Of a stretch of DNA of 64,000 nt, positions 1 to 22,199 are shown one piece after another. The DNA is taken from positions 1 through 64,000 of the forward strand of contig CAMCBV010000002.1 of the NCBI GenBank assembly GCA_945873125.1, in the 5' to 3' direction. This DNA is from Prosthecobacter debontii. GTDB lineage: Bacteria > Verrucomicrobiota > Verrucomicrobiia > Verrucomicrobiales > Akkermansiaceae. The position numbers and the translations under genes are program-made. The notes under the pieces are model-generated. The model searched no databases. It had not been told where the DNA came from and saw only the letters and a list, made by a program, of their open reading frames with translations. Position 1 is the first letter of the stretch, and each line of letters begins with the position of its first letter.

Positions 1-77
1 GTCTTGAGGATGTCACCCCCGACGGAGCAGAGGCAGGCAGCGATAACCTCTGCAGAGGTAGATAATTCTTTGGTCAT
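1..77 (-). CDS. Unidentified protein, N-terminal fragment cut by window edge
   Basis: A minus-strand reading frame is open from an ATG at 77-75 to the window edge, about 25 codons starting MTKELSTSAEVIAA. A second in-frame ATG lies two codons upstream at 83-81. The composition is protein-like and there is no stop, but the fragment is too short to identify. It faces the sigma-54 activator at 190, so the 78-120 dyad would lie in its 5' untranslated region or in a shared divergent promoter. The plus-strand frame is also open here but runs through the palindrome, so I prefer the minus-strand reading. Confidence 0.35.
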   Translation of the reverse strand, partial: MTKELSTSAEVIAACLCSVGGDILK

Positions 78-120
78 AGTCATAAACGTCGTAGGCTGGC
101 GACTTACGACGTTTATGACT
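78..120. promoter_or_regulatory. Perfect 16-bp dyad between divergent genes
   Basis: AGTCATAAACGTCGTA at 78-93 is exactly mirrored by its reverse complement at 105-120, with an 11-base loop. No T-tract follows on the plus strand, so it is not a typical intrinsic terminator. It abuts the presumed start codon of the minus-strand gene and lies 70 bases before the sigma-54 activator. It could be an operator for a dimeric regulator or a hairpin in the minus-strand transcript that covers the start codon. The sequence does not match the REP units further on. Confidence 0.5.
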
Positions 121-189
121 AGAGGGGCTTCGTAGGACGCTTACGGTTGATCTTGCATAATGGCGCGTATTTCCTGAGGCTCGCGCGAG

Positions 190-1569
190 TTGATGTCTGA
201 GTCTGAGTCATTAGAGACCTTGTTGTTGGTGGATCCTGAGCTGGAATTTCTGGATTGGTCCACCAAGCACTTGGCTGCAAAGGGATTGAGAATTTTGCGG
301 TGTGATGATGCGGGTAAGGCGATCAAAGTCATCGAAAAGACCCAGGTCAGCGTCGTGGTTTCGGCAATCTCCTTGCAGCCGTTTGACGGAATGGAGTTAT
401 TGGGTCGGATCCGGTTGCAGAGCCCAGATACCTTGGTGATTTTGACGGCGGGATTCCCGACCACCGGTCAGATCATTGAGGCGACCCAAAAAGGAGCCCA
501 TGATGTGTTGCGGAAAGAATCGCTGTCGTTTGAGCTGAGGCCAGTGGTGGAATCTGCCTTGCAGACCGTGGAGGACAGGCGGGGAGCGGCGGGGCCGGCG
601 GCTGAGGTGCCAAGCCAGGATGGGCGGGTGAAAATCATCGGCGTTTCACGGGCATTGCAGGATGTTTTCAAATTGGTGGGAAGAGTCGCACGATCGGATG
701 CGCCGGTTTTGATTTCCGGCGAGAGCGGCACAGGCAAGGAATTGGTTGCCAAAGCGGTGCACGAATACAGCCCGCGTCGCCAGAAGGAAATGATCACCAT
801 CAACTGCGGCGCGATTCCTGAAAATCTGTTAGAGAGTGAGTTGTTCGGTCACGAAAAAGGTTCTTTCACGGGGGCGATCGCCAAGCGCGCGGGCCGGTTT
901 GAGCAAGCCGACGGGAGCACGTTGTTTCTCGATGAGATCGGTGATATGCCGCTTTCGATCCAAGTGAAATTGCTGCGTGTGTTGCAAGACGGAACATTTT
1001 CAAGAGTGGGTTCCAATGAGGTGTTGAAGACGGATGTCCGGATTGTTGCGGCGACGCATAAGAATCTTGCCGCAGAAGTTTCTGCGGGCCGCTTTCGGGA
1101 GGATTTGTTTTACCGGCTCAACGTGGTTGAGTTACGCATTCCGCCTTTGCGTGAGAGGCCGGAGGATATTCCCTTATTGGCGGAGTATTTCCTGCAGCGG
1201 ATTACGAGAAAGAACGGCATGGCGCGGATCCGTATTTCCGCAGAGGCCACCGCCTCTTTGGCGAGTCATCATTGGCCAGGGAATGTCCGTGAGTTGGAAA
1301 ACACGATGGCTCGGGCTTGTGCTCTGGCTTCTTCACAAATCTTGCTTCCTGCCGATATTCCTCTGGCTTCGGCTCCCGCCAAGGCATCCGCTATGGCGCA
1401 GGGCTTGGATACGTTGATCAATTCGGCGCCATCGGACACGCCGATGTTGGAATGGTTTTCCAAACAGCTTGTGGGAAGACTGTTGGACCGCACGGGAGGT
1501 GATTTAAAAGATGCCGCGGCGTTGCTCGGAATAGAGCTCGCGGAGATGAAGCGGATCTTGTCGAAATAG
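190..1569 (+). CDS. Sigma-54-dependent transcriptional activator with degenerate receiver
   Basis: NtrC-type activator of 459 residues that should open sigma-54 RNA polymerase promoters by ATP hydrolysis. An N-terminal receiver-like domain (about 10-120) keeps D15, T86 and K109, but the phosphoacceptor position, seven residues before the D66-G67 pair, is A59. Phosphorylation there is therefore unlikely. The AAA+ domain follows, with Walker A GESGTGKE from residue 177, the sigma-54 contact loop GSFTGA at 224-229 (usually GAFTGA) and Walker B LFLDEIGD. A Fis-like helix-turn-helix (GGDLKDAAALLG) ends the protein. No histidine kinase gene is adjacent. The stop codon (1567-1569) touches the first REP unit. 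ATG at 193 is an equally good start. Confidence 0.93.
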   Translation: MMSESESLETLLLVDPELEFLDWSTKHLAAKGLRILRCDDAGKAIKVIEKTQVSVVVSAISLQPFDGMELLGRIRLQSPDTLVILTAGFPTTGQIIEATQKGAHDVLRKESLSFELRPVVESALQTVEDRRGAAGPAAEVPSQDGRVKIIGVSRALQDVFKLVGRVARSDAPVLISGESGTGKELVAKAVHEYSPRRQKEMITINCGAIPENLLESELFGHEKGSFTGAIAKRAGRFEQADGSTLFLDEIGDMPLSIQVKLLRVLQDGTFSRVGSNEVLKTDVRIVAATHKNLAAEVSAGRFREDLFYRLNVVELRIPPLRERPEDIPLLAEYFLQRITRKNGMARIRISAEATASLASHHWPGNVRELENTMARACALASSQILLPADIPLASAPAKASAMAQGLDTLINSAPSDTPMLEWFSKQLVGRLLDRTGGDLKDAAALLGIELAEMKRILSK

Positions 1570-2232
1570 GCAGGGACGCGTGTCTCTACGCGTCCGTATT
1601 TTGCGGCGGTTATGACAGAAAGGGACCGATGGGGTATTATGCACCGTTAGATATGGACGTCTGAGGACAGACGTCCCTGCCTGAGATAAATCGCGTCGCA
1701 CGGGCAGCCCCGATAAGTCGGGGCTACGCGTCCATATTTTGCGGCGGTTATAACGGAAAGACGTCGATGGGATATGACGCGCCGTTAGATATGGACGTCT
1801 GGGGACAGACGTCCCTGCCTGAGATAAATCGCGTCGCACGGGCAGGGACGCGTGTCTCTACGCGTCCATATGTTGCGGCGGTTATAACAGAAAGACACCT
1901 ATGGGATATCTTGCACCGTTAGATATGGACGTCTGAGGACAGACGTCCCTGCCTGAGATAAATCGCGTCGCACGGGCAGCCCCGATAAGTCGGGGCTACG
2001 CGTCCATATGTCGCGGCGGTTATAACGGAAAGACGTCGATGGGGTATTACGCACCGTTAGATATGGACGTCTGAGGACAGACGTCCCTGCCTGAGATAAA
2101 TCACGGCGTATGGGCGTCCGTATGTTGCGGCGGTTATAACAGAAAGGTCTCGATGGGATATGACGCGCCGTTAGATATGGACGTCTGAGGATAGACGTCC
2201 CTGCCTGAGATAAATCGCGACGCATGAAATAT
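1570..2232. repeat. REP/BIME array, five composite units (left of RAYT)
   Basis: Five tandem copies of a unit of about 136 bp in one orientation. Each unit has hairpin A, a conserved linker of about 60 bp containing GCGGCGGTTAT, then hairpin B with arms GGACGTCT and AGACGTCC around a six-base loop. Hairpin B starts at 1655, 1793, 1927, 2065 and 2179. Hairpin A alternates between two unrelated palindromes: GGACGCGT/ACGCGTCC in units 1 and 3, and AGCCCCGA/TCGGGGCT in units 2 and 4. Unit 5 is about 22 bp shorter and lacks hairpin A. The array fills the gap downstream of the sigma-54 activator. Open frames across it encode only a repeated low-information peptide and are not genes. Confidence 0.93.
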
Positions 2233-2757
2233 CTACCAACCCTTGGTTCCATCACCTCTTAAGACGTGTGACCATTTTTCATAACTATTTACGTGTCCTG
2301 CGCGCACTGGGTTTTCTCGGATATAATTCCACTTGTCCGTCATATCATTTTCGCTGCGTATTCTGTGATCAAAGTAATCTCGCTGCCAATCTATCGCGAA
2401 GGCTCTTGCTGTGTATCGCTTCCAACTTTTAATGACTTTTCCCATGCCTAATCCTTGATCATTATTGAAACATAGAAGTGCGTGTAGATGATCTGGCATC
2501 AATAAAGTCAGAGATATATGCCATTTGCCAAGTTCTTGATAATGCCAAAAAGAATCGAGTAATCCCTTGGATGTCTCATCAAGGGTAAGTTTGGCTCTGC
2601 GACGATTTTGGCAATTAATGGTAATAAAGAATATTGCGTTTTCGGGAACCCATGGAGGAGGTCTATGAAAGTCTGATCGTGATTTGCGTATGGAAAATTC
2701 AGGGGGCATGAGCAAGAAGATCCTTGTTAGAAGCGAGAATGAGCAAGTGAAATATCT
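2225..2757. mobile_element. RAYT cassette bounded by 10-bp direct repeats
   Basis: TGAAATATCT occurs at 2225-2234 and again at 2748-2757, on either side of the RAYT gene, and REP-unit sequence resumes directly outside both copies. The left copy overlaps the transposase stop codon. This suggests that the cassette interrupted, or was assembled within, a continuous repeat array. The direct repeat could be a target duplication or a recombination scar. IS200-like Y1 enzymes usually make no duplication, so a scar from homologous or microhomologous recombination is at least as likely. Confidence 0.5.
2233..2709 (-). CDS. REP-associated tyrosine transposase (RAYT, Y1/HUH family)
   Basis: Y1 transposase-like protein of 158 residues when started at the ATG at 2709-2707. 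The HUH metal-binding motif is H74-L-H76 within MPDHLHALL, and the catalytic tyrosine is probably Y129 in KWNYIRENPVRAG, which is typical of RAYTs. Members of this family cut and rejoin single-stranded REP hairpins and are domesticated relatives of IS200/IS605 transposases. The gene stands alone between two REP arrays, as RAYT genes usually do. A longer frame begins at 2784 but enters REP sequence, so I chose the internal ATG, which has AAGGA about 11 bases upstream. Both signature motifs are intact, so the enzyme may be active. Confidence 0.9.
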   Translation of the reverse strand: MPPEFSIRKSRSDFHRPPPWVPENAIFFITINCQNRRRAKLTLDETSKGLLDSFWHYQELGKWHISLTLLMPDHLHALLCFNNDQGLGMGKVIKSWKRYTARAFAIDWQRDYFDHRIRSENDMTDKWNYIRENPVRAGHVNSYEKWSHVLRGDGTKGW

Positions 2758-3034
2758 GATAAATCGCGGCGTACGGGCGTCCATAACTCGCGGCGCACGG
2801 GCAGCCCCGATAAGTCGGGGCTACGCGTCCATATCTCGCGGCGGTTATAACGGAAAGACGTCGATGGGGTATTACGCACCGTTAGATATGGACGTCTGGG
2901 GACAGACGTCCCTGCCTGAGATAAATCGCGGCGTATGGGCGTCCGTATCTCGCGGCGGTTATAACGGAAAGGGGCCGATGGGATATCTTGCGCCGTTAGA
3001 TATGGACGTCTAGGGACAGACGTCCCAGCCTGCC
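2758..3034. repeat. REP/BIME array, two units (right of RAYT)
   Basis: This continues the left array in the same orientation. The first unit has hairpin A of the AGCCCCGA type at 2803-2822 and hairpin B at 2890-2911. The second lacks hairpin A and ends with hairpin B at 3004-3025. A further partial unit start (GTACGGGCGTCC) lies at about 2771. The array overlaps the 3' end of the BatA-like gene: that gene's TAA stop (2998-2996) is the CCGTTAGAT motif conserved in the linker of the array's units. Confidence 0.9.
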
Positions 3035-4756
3035 CTTGGAGAAATACCAGGCGACCATCAAGGCTAGGAGAAGGATGAGAATCCATAACCGGATCAGCGG
3101 ATCTGGGGTGGTGTGGATTTTGAGTAAGGCTGCGTTGGAAAACGATTCGAGTTCGGCGGGTGCGGTTTTACTGAGATCGGCCTCGCGCGTATCTGCGAAA
3201 TGGGTGGCGGCTTCTAACAAAAAGATCTCACCTTGTTTCATCGTGATAAAGCCCGGTGAGGCGGGGGCGAAGCCCGCTGCGGGTGGTGTGAGAGGATTTC
3301 CCGAAGGGTCGGTCGCGCGGACTTCGAGAGCGAGATCAGGACTGCTGGTGATTCGGATGGGTTGGCTGGTTTCCAGGTTCAGCTTCTGAGGTGCAATTTT
3401 CTTTTCGCGTAGGGTTTCGGCAAAGCGGTGCAGCAGCACGATGAAGGCGGCTTGTTGGGTGGCATTGGAGAGGCGCAGGTCGAAATTGAAGCAGAGGATG
3501 GATTTTCCGTTTTCCTCGCGCAGAAAAATGAGTGGACGTTTTTCCTGCCAGAGCAGGACCCTGTCGCTGGGGTTACGCGGGAGTTGCAGAGTTTCCCGGA
3601 CAAGCAAAGCCTGCCAGTTGATCCCGTCCATGAGTGGATGGGCCTCGGCAAGAATGCCACCGCTCAGATATTTTCCGGCAGAACTGGGATCTTCAACGAA
3701 CAGGATCGCATGGCTTTGTGGGAGGACAGGGTCGAGTGGGTCATAGGAGGTGATGAAGAGATCGGATTCTGCCGCGTCGTTGCTCTGGCTGGTGGAGGCA
3801 AGCGAGCGGAGCAGTTTTTCGGATAAGTCCTTGAAGGCCGGTGAGGTGGCGGCGAAGAGTTTGAGCTCTTTGGGTTGGGGGGCGATCATGGGAAGGACAT
3901 CATCCAACTGAAATTCATCTGGGCTGAGTTCGAGTCGCACCTGCCGGGAGCCATCAGGAAAGGCGGCTTGGAGAGTCGTGAAAGCACCGGGTTTGATCTC
4001 GAATTCTTTCGGCTCTGACTTTCCGTTTTCCGCGACCAAGGACCACGATCGCTTGGCAGGTGAAATGCCGTAATTTTTAATGATCGCGCGGAATATCAGG
4101 GAACCTTCTTTTTCCTCGAAGGAAACCCCGGTGAAGCCGACGTTTTCGATCGGGCGGCCTACGGAAATGAGGCGCGACTCGTAGGGTAATTTTTCCATCG
4201 GGGTATCGGTCAGGTAGATAACGATACCTTCGTTCGATACAATGGAACGGGCGAGACGGAGGGTGTATGATGGATCGGTGACGCCGGCGGTTGGGGTGAA
4301 TTTTTCCAAAGCCGCGAGCATTTCATCGGCTGAGGCGCCGGCGTAGATTCGGTCGGTTCCGGGTAATGCGGAAAGCAGGGTGATTTCCATTTTCGAGGCG
4401 CTGCCTTGGAGCTCCGGGAGTTTACTTTTCAGTGTGGCGATCGCGTCTTTTTTGAAAACCTGCATGGAGGCAGAGGCATCCATGACCACGGCGATGCGCT
4501 GGACGGAGTTTTCTTTTTGGAAACGTGGTTCGGAAAGGAGCCAAGCGATAAGAAGCACGGCTAAAATCTGCATCCAGAGAGGAACAGAGGGGATGAGCCT
4601 CTCGAAGCGGCGACCGGAGACGGCCTCGCGCTGGGTGTGTTCTAACAGAAAAAGCGTGGAGATCGGGATGGTGATCGATTTCCGTTGGAGGAAATGGATC
4701 GTCAGGATCGCGGGAATCGCGAGCAATGACAGGAGACCGAGAGGATTGGCGAACAC
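2996..4756 (-). CDS. BatA-like membrane protein with von Willebrand factor A domain
   Basis: 586 residues. The N-terminus has the BatA layout: a membrane helix at about 5-23, a basic segment, then a second helix at about 61-75. A VWA domain follows with the metal-site motif D93-A-S95-A-S97. The middle is a long predicted periplasmic region, and a third helix lies near residues 551-571. Such proteins usually sit in aerotolerance (Bat/MoxR) operons, but no MoxR ATPase gene is adjacent inside this window. The last roughly 11 residues (GRLGRLSLDVHI) and the stop codon are encoded by REP hairpin B, so the native C-terminus was probably replaced or extended. The start ATG at 4756-4754 leads directly into the first helix. 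Confidence 0.85.
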   Translation of the reverse strand: MFANPLGLLSLLAIPAILTIHFLQRKSITIPISTLFLLEHTQREAVSGRRFERLIPSVPLWMQILAVLLIAWLLSEPRFQKENSVQRIAVVMDASASMQVFKKDAIATLKSKLPELQGSASKMEITLLSALPGTDRIYAGASADEMLAALEKFTPTAGVTDPSYTLRLARSIVSNEGIVIYLTDTPMEKLPYESRLISVGRPIENVGFTGVSFEEKEGSLIFRAIIKNYGISPAKRSWSLVAENGKSEPKEFEIKPGAFTTLQAAFPDGSRQVRLELSPDEFQLDDVLPMIAPQPKELKLFAATSPAFKDLSEKLLRSLASTSQSNDAAESDLFITSYDPLDPVLPQSHAILFVEDPSSAGKYLSGGILAEAHPLMDGINWQALLVRETLQLPRNPSDRVLLWQEKRPLIFLREENGKSILCFNFDLRLSNATQQAAFIVLLHRFAETLREKKIAPQKLNLETSQPIRITSSPDLALEVRATDPSGNPLTPPAAGFAPASPGFITMKQGEIFLLEAATHFADTREADLSKTAPAELESFSNAALLKIHTTPDPLIRLWILILLLALMVAWYFSKGRLGRLSLDVHI

Positions 4757-12791: not shown

Positions 12792-14063
12792 ATGCAGACA
12801 TCCACCTCACAAACTGTCAAACCTCTGCGCATAGCGGTTCTCGGCTGTGGCGCCAGAGGGCGAACCTACACAAAAATCGCAGCGTCAATGATTGGGCGCT
12901 ATGAGCTCACCGCCGCTGCCGATCTCGTTGAATTTCGTGCCAAAACGGTTGCCGGCTTCGCTCCAGAGGGAACGGTTCGCACGTTCAACTCCGCCGAGGA
13001 ATTTTTCGCTGCTGGCAAGTTGGCGGATGTTCTCATCATCGGCACCCAAGATGCTCATCACTATGGCCATGCGGTTAGCGCGTTGAATATCGGTTATGAT
13101 CTTCTGCTAGAAAAACCAGCTGCGGAGACCCTTGCTCGCTGTGAAGAACTCGATGCGCTTGCACGAAAACTCGGACGCCGCATCGTGCTTGGATTTGTGC
13201 TTCGTTACACACCGTTTTATTCGGCGGTGAAACAAGTGGTTGATAGCGGCCGACTCGGTAGAATCATGACCATGCGTTTGAGTGAGGGTGTTGGCGATTT
13301 CCACCAGGCACATTCATACGTTCGTGGTCATTGGGGGAATACCGCGAAATCTTCTCCGATGATTGTCGCGAAATGCTCGCACGATACAGATCTGATTTGC
13401 TGGCTCTCCGGTTCCAAACCAAAAACAATTTCGAGTTTCGGACGGCTTGATTGGTTCAAGCCTGAAAACGCACCAGCAGGTGCTCCTAAGCGCTGCACCG
13501 ACGGCTGTCCGGTTGCCGCGCAGTGCAATTACGATGCTCATCGCTACCTAACAGAAAAACGCAATTTCCTGCGTATGATCATGGATGGTTATGAAAATGC
13601 AACCGATGAGCAGGTGATCGATTTTCTCAAAACCTCACCATGGGGTCGTTGTGCCTATCATTGTGACAATGACGTGGTGGATCATCAGATTGTCTCCACA
13701 GAAATGGAGAACGGAATCACCGCAAGCCTGACGATGACCGCTTTCGATCACTGCCGGACGATTGAGATCCATGGCACTCTCGGTTCACTCCGTGGCGGCG
13801 AGCCTTTCTCAGATGCCGGCACTCCGGAACTCTGGTTTCGTGAACATCGCACGGATAACATTGAAAGCATTCCAGTCGCAGATCAATCCGCCGAAGGTTA
13901 CGCAGGCCACGGCGGCGGCGACTTCGGTCTCGTCAATGCGCTCGATCAATTGATGACAGGCGATCATGCCATCCCTATCGGTCTAGACGGACTGGCCGGA
14001 CACCAGCTGGCATATCTCGCTGAAACTTCACGTCTGAATGGCGCGCAGCCAGTGAATTTGTAA
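12792..14063 (+). CDS. Gfo/Idh/MocA family oxidoreductase with cysteine-rich insert
   Basis: 423 residues from ATG 12792. A TTG at 12750 has AGGAGG only three bases upstream and would add 14 residues. The N-terminal Rossmann fold has AVLGCGARGR, and the family signature EKPAAETLARCEELD follows, carrying the catalytic-type lysine. The C-terminal substrate domain holds a cysteine cluster (CTDGCPVAAQC, then GRCAYHC), seen in a subset of sugar oxidoreductases in this family; whether it binds metal is unknown. It probably oxidises or reduces a sugar with NAD(P). A short hairpin follows the gene. Confidence 0.9.
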   Translation: MQTSTSQTVKPLRIAVLGCGARGRTYTKIAASMIGRYELTAAADLVEFRAKTVAGFAPEGTVRTFNSAEEFFAAGKLADVLIIGTQDAHHYGHAVSALNIGYDLLLEKPAAETLARCEELDALARKLGRRIVLGFVLRYTPFYSAVKQVVDSGRLGRIMTMRLSEGVGDFHQAHSYVRGHWGNTAKSSPMIVAKCSHDTDLICWLSGSKPKTISSFGRLDWFKPENAPAGAPKRCTDGCPVAAQCNYDAHRYLTEKRNFLRMIMDGYENATDEQVIDFLKTSPWGRCAYHCDNDVVDHQIVSTEMENGITASLTMTAFDHCRTIEIHGTLGSLRGGEPFSDAGTPELWFREHRTDNIESIPVADQSAEGYAGHGGGDFGLVNALDQLMTGDHAIPIGLDGLAGHQLAYLAETSRLNGAQPVNL

Positions 14064-18276: not shown

Positions 18277-20322
18277 TTACTTATCCGGATCAGGGATCTG
18301 TTTGAAAAGATCTGTCAGAATTCCCGGAGTCAGAATGGCCGGTGTGATGACGGGTTCTTTGTCAGGTAGTAAAAGCACGTTCACAGGAATCGCGGTGCGG
18401 CCGAGTTTTTCGAGCTTGGCTTCGATGGCAGAATTCGGAGCGGATTTGTCCGCTTTGAGAAAAACGACGCCCTTTTGTTTCGCGAGTGCGATCACTTTAT
18501 CCGTGTAGGCGACTTTTTTATTCACCTGGCACGTGAAACACCATTGCGCAGTGAAATCGATATAGACTGGAGTTCCTTCGGAAAGGAGGGCTGCGGTTTT
18601 TTCTTCAGACCATGCTTGCCACTCGAGGATCGAGGGTTTGGGTGGCAAGGTGAGCAAGACTCCAGCACCGAAACAGACCAGCGCAGTCACAACTGCGATA
18701 CCGCGCGCTTTCCTGGTGCGATGTGGTAAGAACCAGCGGCCGTAGACCCAAGCGGCGATGGCGATGAGGCAGAGTCCGAAGATGGGAGCGAGTAGATATT
18801 CTTGACCGATGAGGCCCGCGTAAAACCAGAGGAAGTATCCTGCGGAACCGAACAAGAGGAACGACATCGCTTGTTTAAATGATTCCATCCATGCTCCAGG
18901 TCGAGGCAGGGCTTCGACCAGAGAGGGATAAAAAGATAGAATCAGATAAGGCAACGCGAGGCCCAATGCCATGGCGGTGAAGCTGAGAAAAAATTGGCCA
19001 GACGGGAGTGCCAGAGTCGCACCGATGGCGACACCGAGAAAGGGTCCGGAGCATGGGGTGGCGACGACGGTAGCGAGCACACCTGAGAAAAAAGAACCCA
19101 GATGACCGCTTTTGTTTTGGAGTTTGCCACCGACAGAAGTCGCGGAAGTACCCATTTCAAAAAGTCCGAACATATTCAGTCCGAGGATGAACATGAGCAG
19201 CACGAGGACCACGACGACGTTTGGATCCTGGAGTTGGTAGCCCCAACCTTTGAGGGCGGTTCCGTCTCTGATTGCCGCGGCACGTGCGACAAACAGGATG
19301 CCGCTCAAGACTCCGAAAGAAGCCAATACGCCGGTTGCGAAACTCATGCCGTGCAGCGCGATCGAGCGGCGTTTTTCACCGGCTTGTTGGACGAAGCTCA
19401 TGATTTTCAAACCGATCACTGGAAAGACACAGGGCATCAAGTTGAGGATCATGCCACCAAGAAACATGCCACCAAGAATTTTGAGTAATTCTCCAAGCGA
19501 GATGCTTTCCGGTGCGGGCTGCGCGATACGAGTTTCCGGAATGATATAATTGGGTGGGCCGACAAGAATACCGGAAATCGAGTTTCCCTGTGGGATGGGA
19601 TCGTCTAAAAAATCGGTCTTTTTGCGTTCCAAAGTGAGTAGGAAGCCGTCTTCGATCGGGGTGACTTTGCCATTTTCTGAAAGAGCTTTGAGATAAGGTT
19701 CATTCGGAATGAAATCCACAGGACGCGCCCTGATTCCCTTGATTGCCAGTCGAACCGTATCGGGCGAAGCGGAGTCGGGTTTTGCCGATCGTGAAATCTC
19801 GGATGGCAGGGATTTTGGAATCGATTGGCGCGCGGTTTCAAACAAACCCGTTTGCTCAGGATCGATGACTTTGTTTTTGGAGACGGGCAGGTTGAGGGAA
19901 AAAATCGCTTCTTCATCGATGCAGGAATTGGCACAAATTTGCCAATTGGCTGTGGCGGAGAACGTGAAGGCTTCACCCTCGCTCAGGGTGGAGGGAGGCG
20001 TGATCTCCACCAGAAAAACCGGACTGCCGCTGTAGACAAAACTTTTTCCGCTGAAGCCCTCTTTGACTTCAGGGACGGGCCATTGGATGGCACCTGCTTT
20101 CGATCCATCAGGAAGCTTCCATGTGATCGAGGGCGGTAACTCGACTCCGCCGGACTGCAGGTAATAGCTGTGCCATTCCGCGGGGTGTTCAAGTTTAAGG
20201 GCGACTGTAAATGGATCTCCGGGAGCGACTGAAGTCACTTCAGGGATCAAAGTTGCTGTGGATTTCACCTTGTCAGCGGCGGCTGTGCAACAGAGAGCGA
20301 GCAGGAAAAACAGGTTACGCAT
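18277..20322 (-). CDS. dsbD: DsbD-like thiol:disulfide transporter with C-terminal thioredoxin domain
   Basis: 681 residues. A signal peptide (about 1-16) is followed by a periplasmic DsbD alpha-like domain with the paired cysteines ANWQICANSC. The membrane region has the two electron-carrying cysteines in NLMPCVFPV and ATPCSGPFLG. A C-terminal thioredoxin fold carries QWCFTCQ near residue 593. It passes reducing power from cytoplasmic thioredoxin across the inner membrane. All three redox centres are intact. The start is only about 50 bases from the REP array at 20371, so its promoter must lie in or beside the array. Confidence 0.92.
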   Translation of the reverse strand: MRNLFFLLALCCTAAADKVKSTATLIPEVTSVAPGDPFTVALKLEHPAEWHSYYLQSGGVELPPSITWKLPDGSKAGAIQWPVPEVKEGFSGKSFVYSGSPVFLVEITPPSTLSEGEAFTFSATANWQICANSCIDEEAIFSLNLPVSKNKVIDPEQTGLFETARQSIPKSLPSEISRSAKPDSASPDTVRLAIKGIRARPVDFIPNEPYLKALSENGKVTPIEDGFLLTLERKKTDFLDDPIPQGNSISGILVGPPNYIIPETRIAQPAPESISLGELLKILGGMFLGGMILNLMPCVFPVIGLKIMSFVQQAGEKRRSIALHGMSFATGVLASFGVLSGILFVARAAAIRDGTALKGWGYQLQDPNVVVVLVLLMFILGLNMFGLFEMGTSATSVGGKLQNKSGHLGSFFSGVLATVVATPCSGPFLGVAIGATLALPSGQFFLSFTAMALGLALPYLILSFYPSLVEALPRPGAWMESFKQAMSFLLFGSAGYFLWFYAGLIGQEYLLAPIFGLCLIAIAAWVYGRWFLPHRTRKARGIAVVTALVCFGAGVLLTLPPKPSILEWQAWSEEKTAALLSEGTPVYIDFTAQWCFTCQVNKKVAYTDKVIALAKQKGVVFLKADKSAPNSAIEAKLEKLGRTAIPVNVLLLPDKEPVITPAILTPGILTDLFKQIPDPDK

Positions 20323-20370: not shown

Positions 20371-20765
20371 TAGGCAGCCCCGACTCATCGGGGCTACGCG
20401 TCCATATCTTGCGGCTGTTATAACGGAAAGGTCTTGATGGGGGATTGCGTGCCGCCAGATATGGACGTCTGAGGACAGACGTCCCTGCCTGAGATAAATC
20501 GCGGCGCAGGGGCTGGGACGCGTGTCACCACGCGTCCCTATCTTGCGGCTGTTATAACGGACAGGTCTTGATGGGGTATTGCGTGCCGCCAGATATGGAC
20601 GTCTGAGGACAGACGTCCCTGCCTGAGATGAATCGCGGCGCACGGGCAGGGACGCGTGTCTCCACGCGTCCGTATCTTCCGGTGGTTATTGTGGAAAGGT
20701 CTCGATGGGGTATTGCGCGCTGCCAGATATGGACGTCTGAGGACAGACGTCCCTGCCTGAGATGA
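20371..20765. repeat. REP/BIME array, three units, between dsbD and ffh
   Basis: Three tandem units of the same architecture as at 1570-3034. Hairpin A is AGCCCCGA type at 20376-20395, then GGGACGCGTG type at 20515-20538 and at 20650-20671. Hairpin B lies at 20463-20484, 20597-20618 and 20731-20752. The linker differs from the first array (GCGGCTGTTATAACGG; GTGCCGCCAGATAT instead of GCACCGTTAGATAT), so this is a distinct subfamily. It sits between two divergent genes, where REP elements are uncommon, and no transposase gene is next to it. Open frames across it are artefacts. Confidence 0.92.
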
Positions 20766-20825: not shown

Positions 20826-22199
20826 ATGTTCTCAGCCCTCAGCGACAGCCTCGACAAGACCTTCCGTAACCTACGCGGGGTCGGTAAAATTTCCGAGAAA
20901 AACATCACGGATGCCTTGCGTGAAATTCGCATCGCACTCTTGGAGGCGGATGTGGAATTCGGCGTCGCCAAAGAACTCATCGCTCGGGTCAAAGAGGCGT
21001 CGATGGGGGAGAATGTTTTAAAATCAATCAAGCCCGGCGAGCAGATCGTCAAATTGTTTCAAGATGAACTCACACGGGTTTTGGGAGGTGACAACGTTCC
21101 GCTTGATCTGAATCCGCCCGCGCGGATTCTCATGGTCGGTTTGAATGGAGCGGGTAAGACCACGACCTCCGCGAAGCTCGCGCGCCGTCTTAAAAAAGAG
21201 GGACGCCGTCCATTGTTGGTGGCTTGTGATTTATATCGCCCGGCGGCGATCGATCAGTTGGTGACTTTGGCTGGCCAGATCGATGTGCCGGTGTTTGCTC
21301 CGGATCGAGGTGAAACGGATTTACTAAAAGTGGCGCGTGAGGCGATTGCTCATGGCGAGAAAACAGGAGCGACCGTTTTGATTTTCGATACCGCGGGTCG
21401 CCAAGAAATTGATGACAAGCTCATTGAGGAATTGAAGCGGTTGCATGCGTTTTTGAAGCCGAAAGAAACGCTTTTGGTTGCGGATGCCGCGACCGGACAA
21501 CAGGCGGTTTCCGTGGCAAAGCATTTCGATGATGCGGTGGGAATCACTGGCATTGTGCTGACAAAATTGGACGGTGATGCTCGCGGCGGTGCGGCGCTTT
21601 CCATGCGTGAGGTGACGGGTAAGCCGATCAAATACGCGGGTGAGGGAGAGAAGCTTGATCAGTTGATGGAGTTCCATCCATCGCGTATGGCGGACCGAAT
21701 TCTCGGCATGGGCGATATCGTCAGCATGGTCGAGAGCGTGTCGGATAAGATCAACGAAGCCGATGCCATGCGCTCGGTGAAGCGGATGCAGGAGGGGAAA
21801 TTCGATTTCAATGATTTCCTGGATCAGATGAAAATGATCCAAAATCTCGGGCCGCTTGAGGGCTTGCTCGGATTGATGCCGGGGTTTAACAAGATCAAAA
21901 AACAACTGCCAACGGGTGCGCTTGATAATAGCAAGTTAAAGCGCACCGAGGCGATTGTGCTTTCGATGACCCCGTATGAACGTGCGCGTCCGGAAATCAT
22001 CAAGGCGTCACGTCGTCAACGCATTGCCGCGGGTTCGGGCACTTCCATCGTGCAGGTCAACCAGCTCATCAAGCAGTTCGGAGAAATGCGTAAAATGATG
22101 AAGTCACCCGGCAAAATGAAGAACATGATGAAGCAAATGGGCGGGGCCGCCGGCATGGGCGACATGATGAAAGGTTTGGGCGGGAAGTTTCCGTTTTAG
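20826..22199 (+). CDS. ffh: Signal recognition particle protein
   Basis: 457 residues. The N domain (about 1-90) precedes the SRP GTPase with G1 VGLNGAGKTTT, DTAGRQ and TKLDGDARGG, then a methionine-rich M domain ending in KMMKSPGKMKNMMKQMGG. It binds SRP RNA and signal sequences and docks with FtsY for co-translational membrane insertion. Length is normal. The start ATG at 20826 matches the standard MFSALSDSLDKTF opening. A REP array ends about 60 bases upstream. No SRP RNA gene was recognised nearby. Confidence 0.97.
   Translation: MFSALSDSLDKTFRNLRGVGKISEKNITDALREIRIALLEADVEFGVAKELIARVKEASMGENVLKSIKPGEQIVKLFQDELTRVLGGDNVPLDLNPPARILMVGLNGAGKTTTSAKLARRLKKEGRRPLLVACDLYRPAAIDQLVTLAGQIDVPVFAPDRGETDLLKVAREAIAHGEKTGATVLIFDTAGRQEIDDKLIEELKRLHAFLKPKETLLVADAATGQQAVSVAKHFDDAVGITGIVLTKLDGDARGGAALSMREVTGKPIKYAGEGEKLDQLMEFHPSRMADRILGMGDIVSMVESVSDKINEADAMRSVKRMQEGKFDFNDFLDQMKMIQNLGPLEGLLGLMPGFNKIKKQLPTGALDNSKLKRTEAIVLSMTPYERARPEIIKASRRQRIAAGSGTSIVQVNQLIKQFGEMRKMMKSPGKMKNMMKQMGGAAGMGDMMKGLGGKFPF

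Follow-up and report, generated by a model that had tools for sequence, protein, structure and literature searches.

In P. fluorescens SBW25, REP doublets form hairpins and are found mostly as single dispersed copies, and tandem REPIN clusters that include their flanks lie beside each RAYT, with excision seen in reads (Bertels and Rainey 2011, PMC3116915). The copies of this system number in the hundreds and carry a foot of the GTAG-type family. The E. coli TnpAREP/BIME system (structure 4er8; PMC8266576) has its foot directly 5' of the hairpin, a CT near the REP and a bulged REP stem. CT is the known cleavage dinucleotide of TnpAREP, and the E. coli enzyme tolerates no change of GTAG (PMC8266576). 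The group 3 REPtron Sm of Stenotrophomonas maltophilia has a perfect palindrome of 8-9 bp with the foot at the stem base, and its enzyme TnpASm binds GCAG, yet cleavage was barely detected in vitro (PMC8266576). REP families with GTAG or GTGG feet, including intragenic REPs, have been described in Opitutus terrae, which belongs to the same phylum as the genome studied here (Di Nocera 2013, PMC3733652). A TIRtron, as defined by Di Nocera, consists of a RAYT-like gene enclosed by long terminal inverted repeats that have no relation to REPs.

We analysed a stretch of 64,000 nucleotides (the window) from a 2.88-Mb draft genome of the Akkermansiaceae, a MAG referred to as G000. The locus is very probably a REPtron, in which a vertically maintained RAYT is accompanied by the REPIN family that it processes. 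It resembles SBW25 in its REP doublets, its mostly single dispersed copies and its tandem clusters near the RAYT, but has only about 27 copies, a GCAG foot, chimeric hairpins and, in most relatives, REPINs on both sides of the gene. The original prediction had called the bipartite units and their tandem layout unusual; they turned out to be ordinary REPINs, and tandem clusters beside a RAYT are known in SBW25 (PMC3116915) and as BIMEs/REPtrons elsewhere. With E. coli the locus shares the fold, the equivalents of W94, Q95, H101, R104 and Y115, the foot directly 5' of the hairpin and the CT near the REP, whereas its stems are perfect, its foot is GCAG and position 100 is D, as in group 3, instead of E. 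The perfect 8-9 bp palindrome, the foot at the stem base and D at position 100 are also those of REPtron Sm, but here GCAG is the natural foot. The GCAG clade is not described in PMC3733652. New here are this clade and the fact that it arose once on the RAYT tree, together with the chimeric hairpins.

The RAYT gene and its REPINs

The RAYT of the window (Table 1) has the HLH motif at residues 74-76, the catalytic Tyr at 129 and the GTAG-contact motif WQxxxxDHxxR at 108-118. It scored 87.8 bits with the NCBIfam model NF047646 (REP-associated tyrosine transposase, cut-off 80) and matched the TnpAREP 4er8 with phmmer (E 1.4e-5). A Foldseek search with the AlphaFold model (pLDDT 79) also gave 4er8 as the best match (E 2.8e-8), followed by the ISDra2 and IS608 transposases. 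Based on NF047646 and 4er8, the protein has a Y1 HUH domain of the REP-associated subfamily, and the RAYT/REP system recognised in the original prediction was thus corroborated by both sequence and structure. Pfam alone would miss this assignment, because Y1_Tnp reached 19.2 bits, below its cut-off of 23. H74, H76 and Y129 (Y115 in E. coli) were invariant over 8 orthologues, as were the GTAG-contact residues. The E. coli foot contacts W94, Q95, E100, H101 and R104 correspond to W108, Q109, D114, H115 and R118, and D at E. coli position 100 is the usual residue in group 3 and subclass 2.7 (PMC6006769, PMC8266576). The ORF and the catalytic residues are intact in the window and in seven other orthologues aligned, and the RAYT of G098 has one frameshift just after HFH. 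The gene is flanked by direct REPIN arrays and so is not a TIRtron, although other RAYTs of the same genome do fit that definition.

Table 1. Positions of the RAYT, the REPIN units and the RAYT-carrying host genes, in the window unless a contig of G000 is given.
Feature	Position	Strand	Remarks
REPIN unit 1, complete	1569..1681	+	sequence, folding
REPIN unit 2, chimeric first hairpin	1703..1819	+	AGCCCCGATAAGTCGGGGCT
REPIN unit 3, complete	1841..1953	+	sequence, folding
REPIN unit 4, chimeric first hairpin	1975..2091	+	
Unit 5, first hairpin deleted	2110..2205	+	
RAYT, TnpAREP-type Y1 HUH transposase	2236..2709	-	158 codons, ATG 2709, stop 2233
Stub of one more unit (linker plus half a REP), upstream of RAYT start	~2756..2799	+	sequence
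REPIN unit 6, chimeric first hairpin	2800..2916	+	
Unit 7, first hairpin deleted	2935..3030	+	
Second array unit 1, chimeric first hairpin	20374..20489	+	
Second array unit 2	20511..20623	+	
Second array unit 3	20645..20757	+	
leuS, RAYT inside	G000:C2:73925-77065 (L018)		same contig, beyond the window
ispG, RAYT inside	G000:C6:9863-12475 (L014)		
metH, RAYT inside	G000:C4:15307-18534 (L017)		

Seven units in one orientation surround the RAYT gene, which is on the opposite strand, at 1569-3030. A 111-nt core was found as seven direct copies starting at 1590, 1728, 1862, 2000, 2114, 2825 and 2939, with 78-94% identity to the reference copy and with the RAYT ORF between copies 5 and 6, so that the layout given in the original prediction was confirmed. 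Its description of units of about 136 bp with two hairpins each holds in part: five of the seven are complete REPINs with two inverted REP hairpins (GGCAG...CTGCC), whereas units 5 and 7, of 96 bp each, have lost hairpin A and keep one. The REPIN itself measures 113 or 117 bp, and the apparent period of 134-138 in units 1-4 arises because a linker of about 21 bp (TGAGATAAATCGCG..CGCACGG) adds to the REPIN length; for the truncated units the period is 114. The inventory of seven units likewise stands, but it had left unmentioned the stub, the second array and the two unrelated versions of hairpin A, which are GGACGCGT..ACGCGTCC in units 1 and 3 and AGCCCCGA..TCGGGGCT in units 2, 4 and 6. The first hairpin is accordingly foreign in three of the seven island units. 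A 22-mer from the core had 13 matches in the draft genome and none for the reversed control, which excludes chance for the core repeats. Folded island units had z-scores of -4.4 to -4.8 against dinucleotide shuffles (-4.4 to -13.8 for REPINs overall), and an Rfam search of window positions 1-25000 gave no match.

Convergent genes flank the island, which touches the stop codon of each. The REP foot of unit 1 overlaps the TAG stop (1567-1569) of the upstream sigma-54 regulator gene, which ends at 1569, and the VWA gene (2996-4756, minus strand) ends inside unit 7. At 2996-3034 the VWA/BatA-like gene takes its final ~10 codons from this unit, and the orthologues end differently.

The second array has three units at 20374-20757, between the divergent genes dsbD-like (18277-20322, minus strand) and ffh (20826-22199, plus strand). 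A search of the draft genome with one unit gave a further ~17 dispersed single REPINs on other contigs, mostly intergenic and many of full length. Their common plan starts with GGCAGGGAC-stem-loop-stem-GTCCATATCT, continues with an inner stretch whose length is fixed and closes with the inverse at the other end, with an inner GTCC to GGAC spacing of 66-68 nt in nearly every copy. The elements are REPINs, that is, two inverted REPs in one unit at fixed spacing, and the RAYT is flanked by REP hairpins that are also dispersed, mostly between genes, as in a REPtron. Among the stem cells 95.9% were paired, with 35 double changes against 9.3 in shuffles, and the covariation score of 0.429 (0.114 in shuffles, reached by 0 of 500) fell below 0.11 when the stem was slid; since the alignment was partly pattern-selected with the first stem pairs and the tail fixed, the inner stem is the independent part of this test. 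The first four stem pairs and most of the REP tail are invariant. In ordinary dispersed ends, a set not selected by foot, the foot was GCAG in 22 of 25 and GTAG in one, and 31 of 34 dispersed REP ends have CT at one and the same place in the tail.

Other repeats were also seen in this genome. GGCAGGG-ended REPINs with another tail (e.g. GTTCAT, not ATATCT) and another interior at L038 (G000:C21:2837) and L063 (G000:C22:21746) are further subfamilies within G000. The contig itself begins with a hairpin repeat, CATAAACGTCG..CGACGTTTATG (window 1-135), that recurs at G000:C39 ~13,680-13,780 (L057), where it adjoins a chimeric REPIN inside a larger inverted repeat, GAATGGCACGTGATTAAG; the repeat is perhaps another MITE or an IS end.

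REP number and REPIN sites in related genomes

REP patterns were counted across the family (195 genomes). The full pattern was abundant solely in G000 (35), G166 (28) and G098 (21), and G090 had 4. A shorter pattern that allows other tails detected 9-62 REPs in eight of the nine genomes with a RAYT of at least 50% identity; the ninth, G010, has GGGAACG stems that are invisible to this pattern. The original prediction had tied the units to the RAYT, in this genome and in relatives, and both expectations were borne out: the units recur elsewhere in each, and REP number is linked to RAYT presence in the genus, where at least 9 REPs were found in 7/7 genomes with a RAYT of at least 50% identity and in 4/37 others (Fisher p = 9e-6, not corrected for phylogeny). 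Four genomes depart from this: G166 and G152, drafts with a completeness of 89% and 95%, carry 23-28 REPs and no close RAYT, and G158 and G146 have REPs with a RAYT of 40-43% identity. All 8 close orthologues examined lie among REPs of their own, in which the outer GCAGGGA is conserved and the stems and inner parts have diverged.

G166 is the closest relative examined (87% DNA identity at ffh), and nine dispersed REPIN sites were compared between it and G000. Site polymorphism was observed: five sites carry a REPIN in both genomes (C12, C15, C18 and C1 are among the shared REPINs), C29 has a clean empty site in G166, which may reflect movement of the REPIN as a unit or its loss, recent or old, and at C17 and C32 G166 holds other sequence at the place of the REPIN. 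At C38 a single double-foot REP in G166 stands against a whole REPIN in G000, and this would fit a deletion between the two REPIN arms, a route of decay proposed in PMC6006769. The left REP at C1:129753 is plain in G166 and has a CCCCGA hairpin in G000. Altogether, 13 of 54 REP ends in G000 are chimeric, on at least 7 different retained arms. The hairpin (CCCCGA-N4-TCGGGG) always takes the place of the first arm and the loop, from behind the GCAG foot up to where the second arm begins, with CT before the junction in 7/13. Recurrent hairpin exchange at CT would fit RAYT chemistry, and gene conversion is possible as well. The idea that another RAYT has the CCCCGA hairpin as its REP was discarded, because the hairpin is absent from 562 kb around 103 related RAYTs.

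The position of the island was not conserved in nine genus relatives, and neither array was found at the same place in G166 or other relatives. At the edges of the arrays the homology to G166 breaks off, resuming at 3033 after unit 7, so that the arrays sit at synteny breaks, where insertion and recombination look alike. Dispersed copies share a median identity of 68%, with 87% in the closest pair, whereas tandem neighbours are up to 98% identical. Local amplification is therefore recent, and the dispersed copies are old.

A different insertion relative to G166 was seen at L067 (G000:C38, downstream of rpsA): the 20-nt hairpin CCCCGACATATCGGGGTGAA, which follows GTAG without a gap (CGTAG|TAATACGG). 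It is possibly a very small mobile hairpin with GTAG as its target.

The GCAG foot on the RAYT tree

The canonical foot of REPtrons, at the base of the hairpin, is GT[AG]G; here it is GCAG. Since degenerate GYAG feet are known in some REP families (PMC3733652), GCAG marks a variant and not an exclusion from REPtrons. In named genomes, a scan for related RAYTs turned up 80 loci, which belong to Verrucomicrobiota, Kiritimatiellota, Lentisphaerota and a few other groups, and feet were scored as the four bases before each hairpin. With a scan that sees solely GNNG followed by G, with 26 loci unscored and near-copies included, the 14 RAYTs of the GCAG clade, that of the window among them, had 58 GCAG and no GTAG in their flanking REPs, and 60 other RAYT loci had 219 GTAG against 8 GCAG; the contrast does not depend on these limits. 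In a maximum-likelihood tree of 99 RAYTs the window RAYT falls within this clade (support 100/92), which consists of every one of the 12 rows correctly scored as GCAG, plus two rows without a score in which GCAGGGA is visible. The automatic label GCAG at L110 was rejected as wrong, as its protein is identical to that of L188, whose hairpins read GGTAGCG.

On the tree, GTAG gave way to GCAG a single time, together with the RAYT, in this Akkermansiaceae clade. Such a switch would be unlikely to be neutral for the enzyme, because the tested GTAG enzymes hardly accept GCAG. One residue, D122, was tried as the single explanation, being D in 14/14 of the GCAG clade and absent from the common residues of GTAG loci, but was ruled out since E. 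coli, a GTAG enzyme, has D there too. Every clade-specific residue, among them those at positions 42, 66, 83, 122, 127, 132 and 143 of the window RAYT, is confounded because the switch has one origin. A bolder and doubtful proposal is that the RAYT lineage was re-specified from GTAG to GCAG and that its CT cleavage and strand transfer make the chimeric REPs in place.

Activity, rival explanations and RAYTs inside host genes

In the REPtron reading, REPs would turn single-stranded on the lagging strand or in a cruciform, and the RAYT would bind the hairpin with its 5' foot GCAG. Tyr129 would then cut at a CT that is chosen through the AG of the foot; the likeliest candidate is the one in the conserved tail ATATCT. 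Rejoining of the cut ends could lead to REPINs being occasionally inserted, lost or recombined, and near the gene the REPIN with its linker may have been multiplied in tandem by slippage, recombination or the RAYT. The original prediction went further and saw a good candidate for an active system, which the data do not bear out: the dispersed copies have diverged to the extent given above, and near-identical copies are solely tandem neighbours, which slippage or recombination could make. The empty site at C29 could be a deletion, tandem arrays can arise without the enzyme, and G098 holds arrays alongside a frameshifted RAYT. GCAG also serves poorly as a substrate of TnpASm, a GTAG enzyme that has been tested (PMC8266576), and its use by the clade is putative.

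These points lead to a serious alternative, to which we give somewhat less than an even chance: an ancestral RAYT spread the REPINs, the present one is domesticated otherwise or decaying, and the arrays come from slippage or recombination only. The divergence of the dispersed copies (compared with array neighbours), the near-identical arrays beside the frameshifted RAYT of G098 and the persistence of REPs in G166 and G152 without a close RAYT are what such a relic would leave; the intact ORF and catalytic residues in the window and the other seven aligned orthologues argue against it, as do the differences in REPIN presence between sister genomes. It is improbable that the REPINs serve the host, as terminators in both directions or as stabilisers of mRNA between convergent genes, and that the RAYT is a mere neighbour. 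Strong hairpins and an island touching both stops of convergent genes would be expected of such elements, but the second array lies between divergent genes, neither array is at the same place in relatives, REP number follows the RAYT and orthologous RAYTs elsewhere are also embedded in REPs. Least credible of all is an IS200/IS605-type insertion sequence with its ends. The Y1 HUH fold and the ISDra2 and IS608 transposases next in the structure search point that way, yet the RAYT scored 14 bits with transpos_IS200 (NF033573) against a cut-off of 55, which places it outside IS200/IS605, while REP_Tyr_transpos was above its cut-off; there is one close copy per genome, it is ringed by direct REPIN arrays and no tnpB was seen.

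RAYTs of another subfamily, with HVH and Tyr intact, were seen in frame inside leuS, ispG and metH of G000 (Table 1). The inserts are bounded by translated terminal inverted repeats in leuS (GGGAGCGTGGGCGTCCCGCCCGC) and metH (31 bp, one mismatch), and by translated GTAG-footed hairpins in ispG (GTAGCTGGGACTTGCAGTCCCAG). The ispG insert occurs in roughly 18 of 44 genus genomes and the leuS insert in ~12, and others, e.g. G098, are uninterrupted. This distribution suggests that RAYT units move and are tolerated within essential proteins. According to the literature there is no evidence of tnpAREP mobility (PMC8266576), and in-gene inserts that differ among species are contrary to the view that RAYT genes stay put.

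How RAYTs read the REP foot, and whether the foot selects the cleavage site, is a biochemical question, and GTAG has been regarded as close to universal and as essential. The natural switch to GCAG in a single clade, whose sister enzymes have kept GTAG, offers matched pairs of enzyme and substrate and a short list of candidate residues. In the alignments REPINs decay to double-foot REPs and exchange hairpins at orthologous sites, steps that were proposed before and have rarely been seen. The RAYTs inside ispG, leuS and metH may deserve more attention than the island finding itself.
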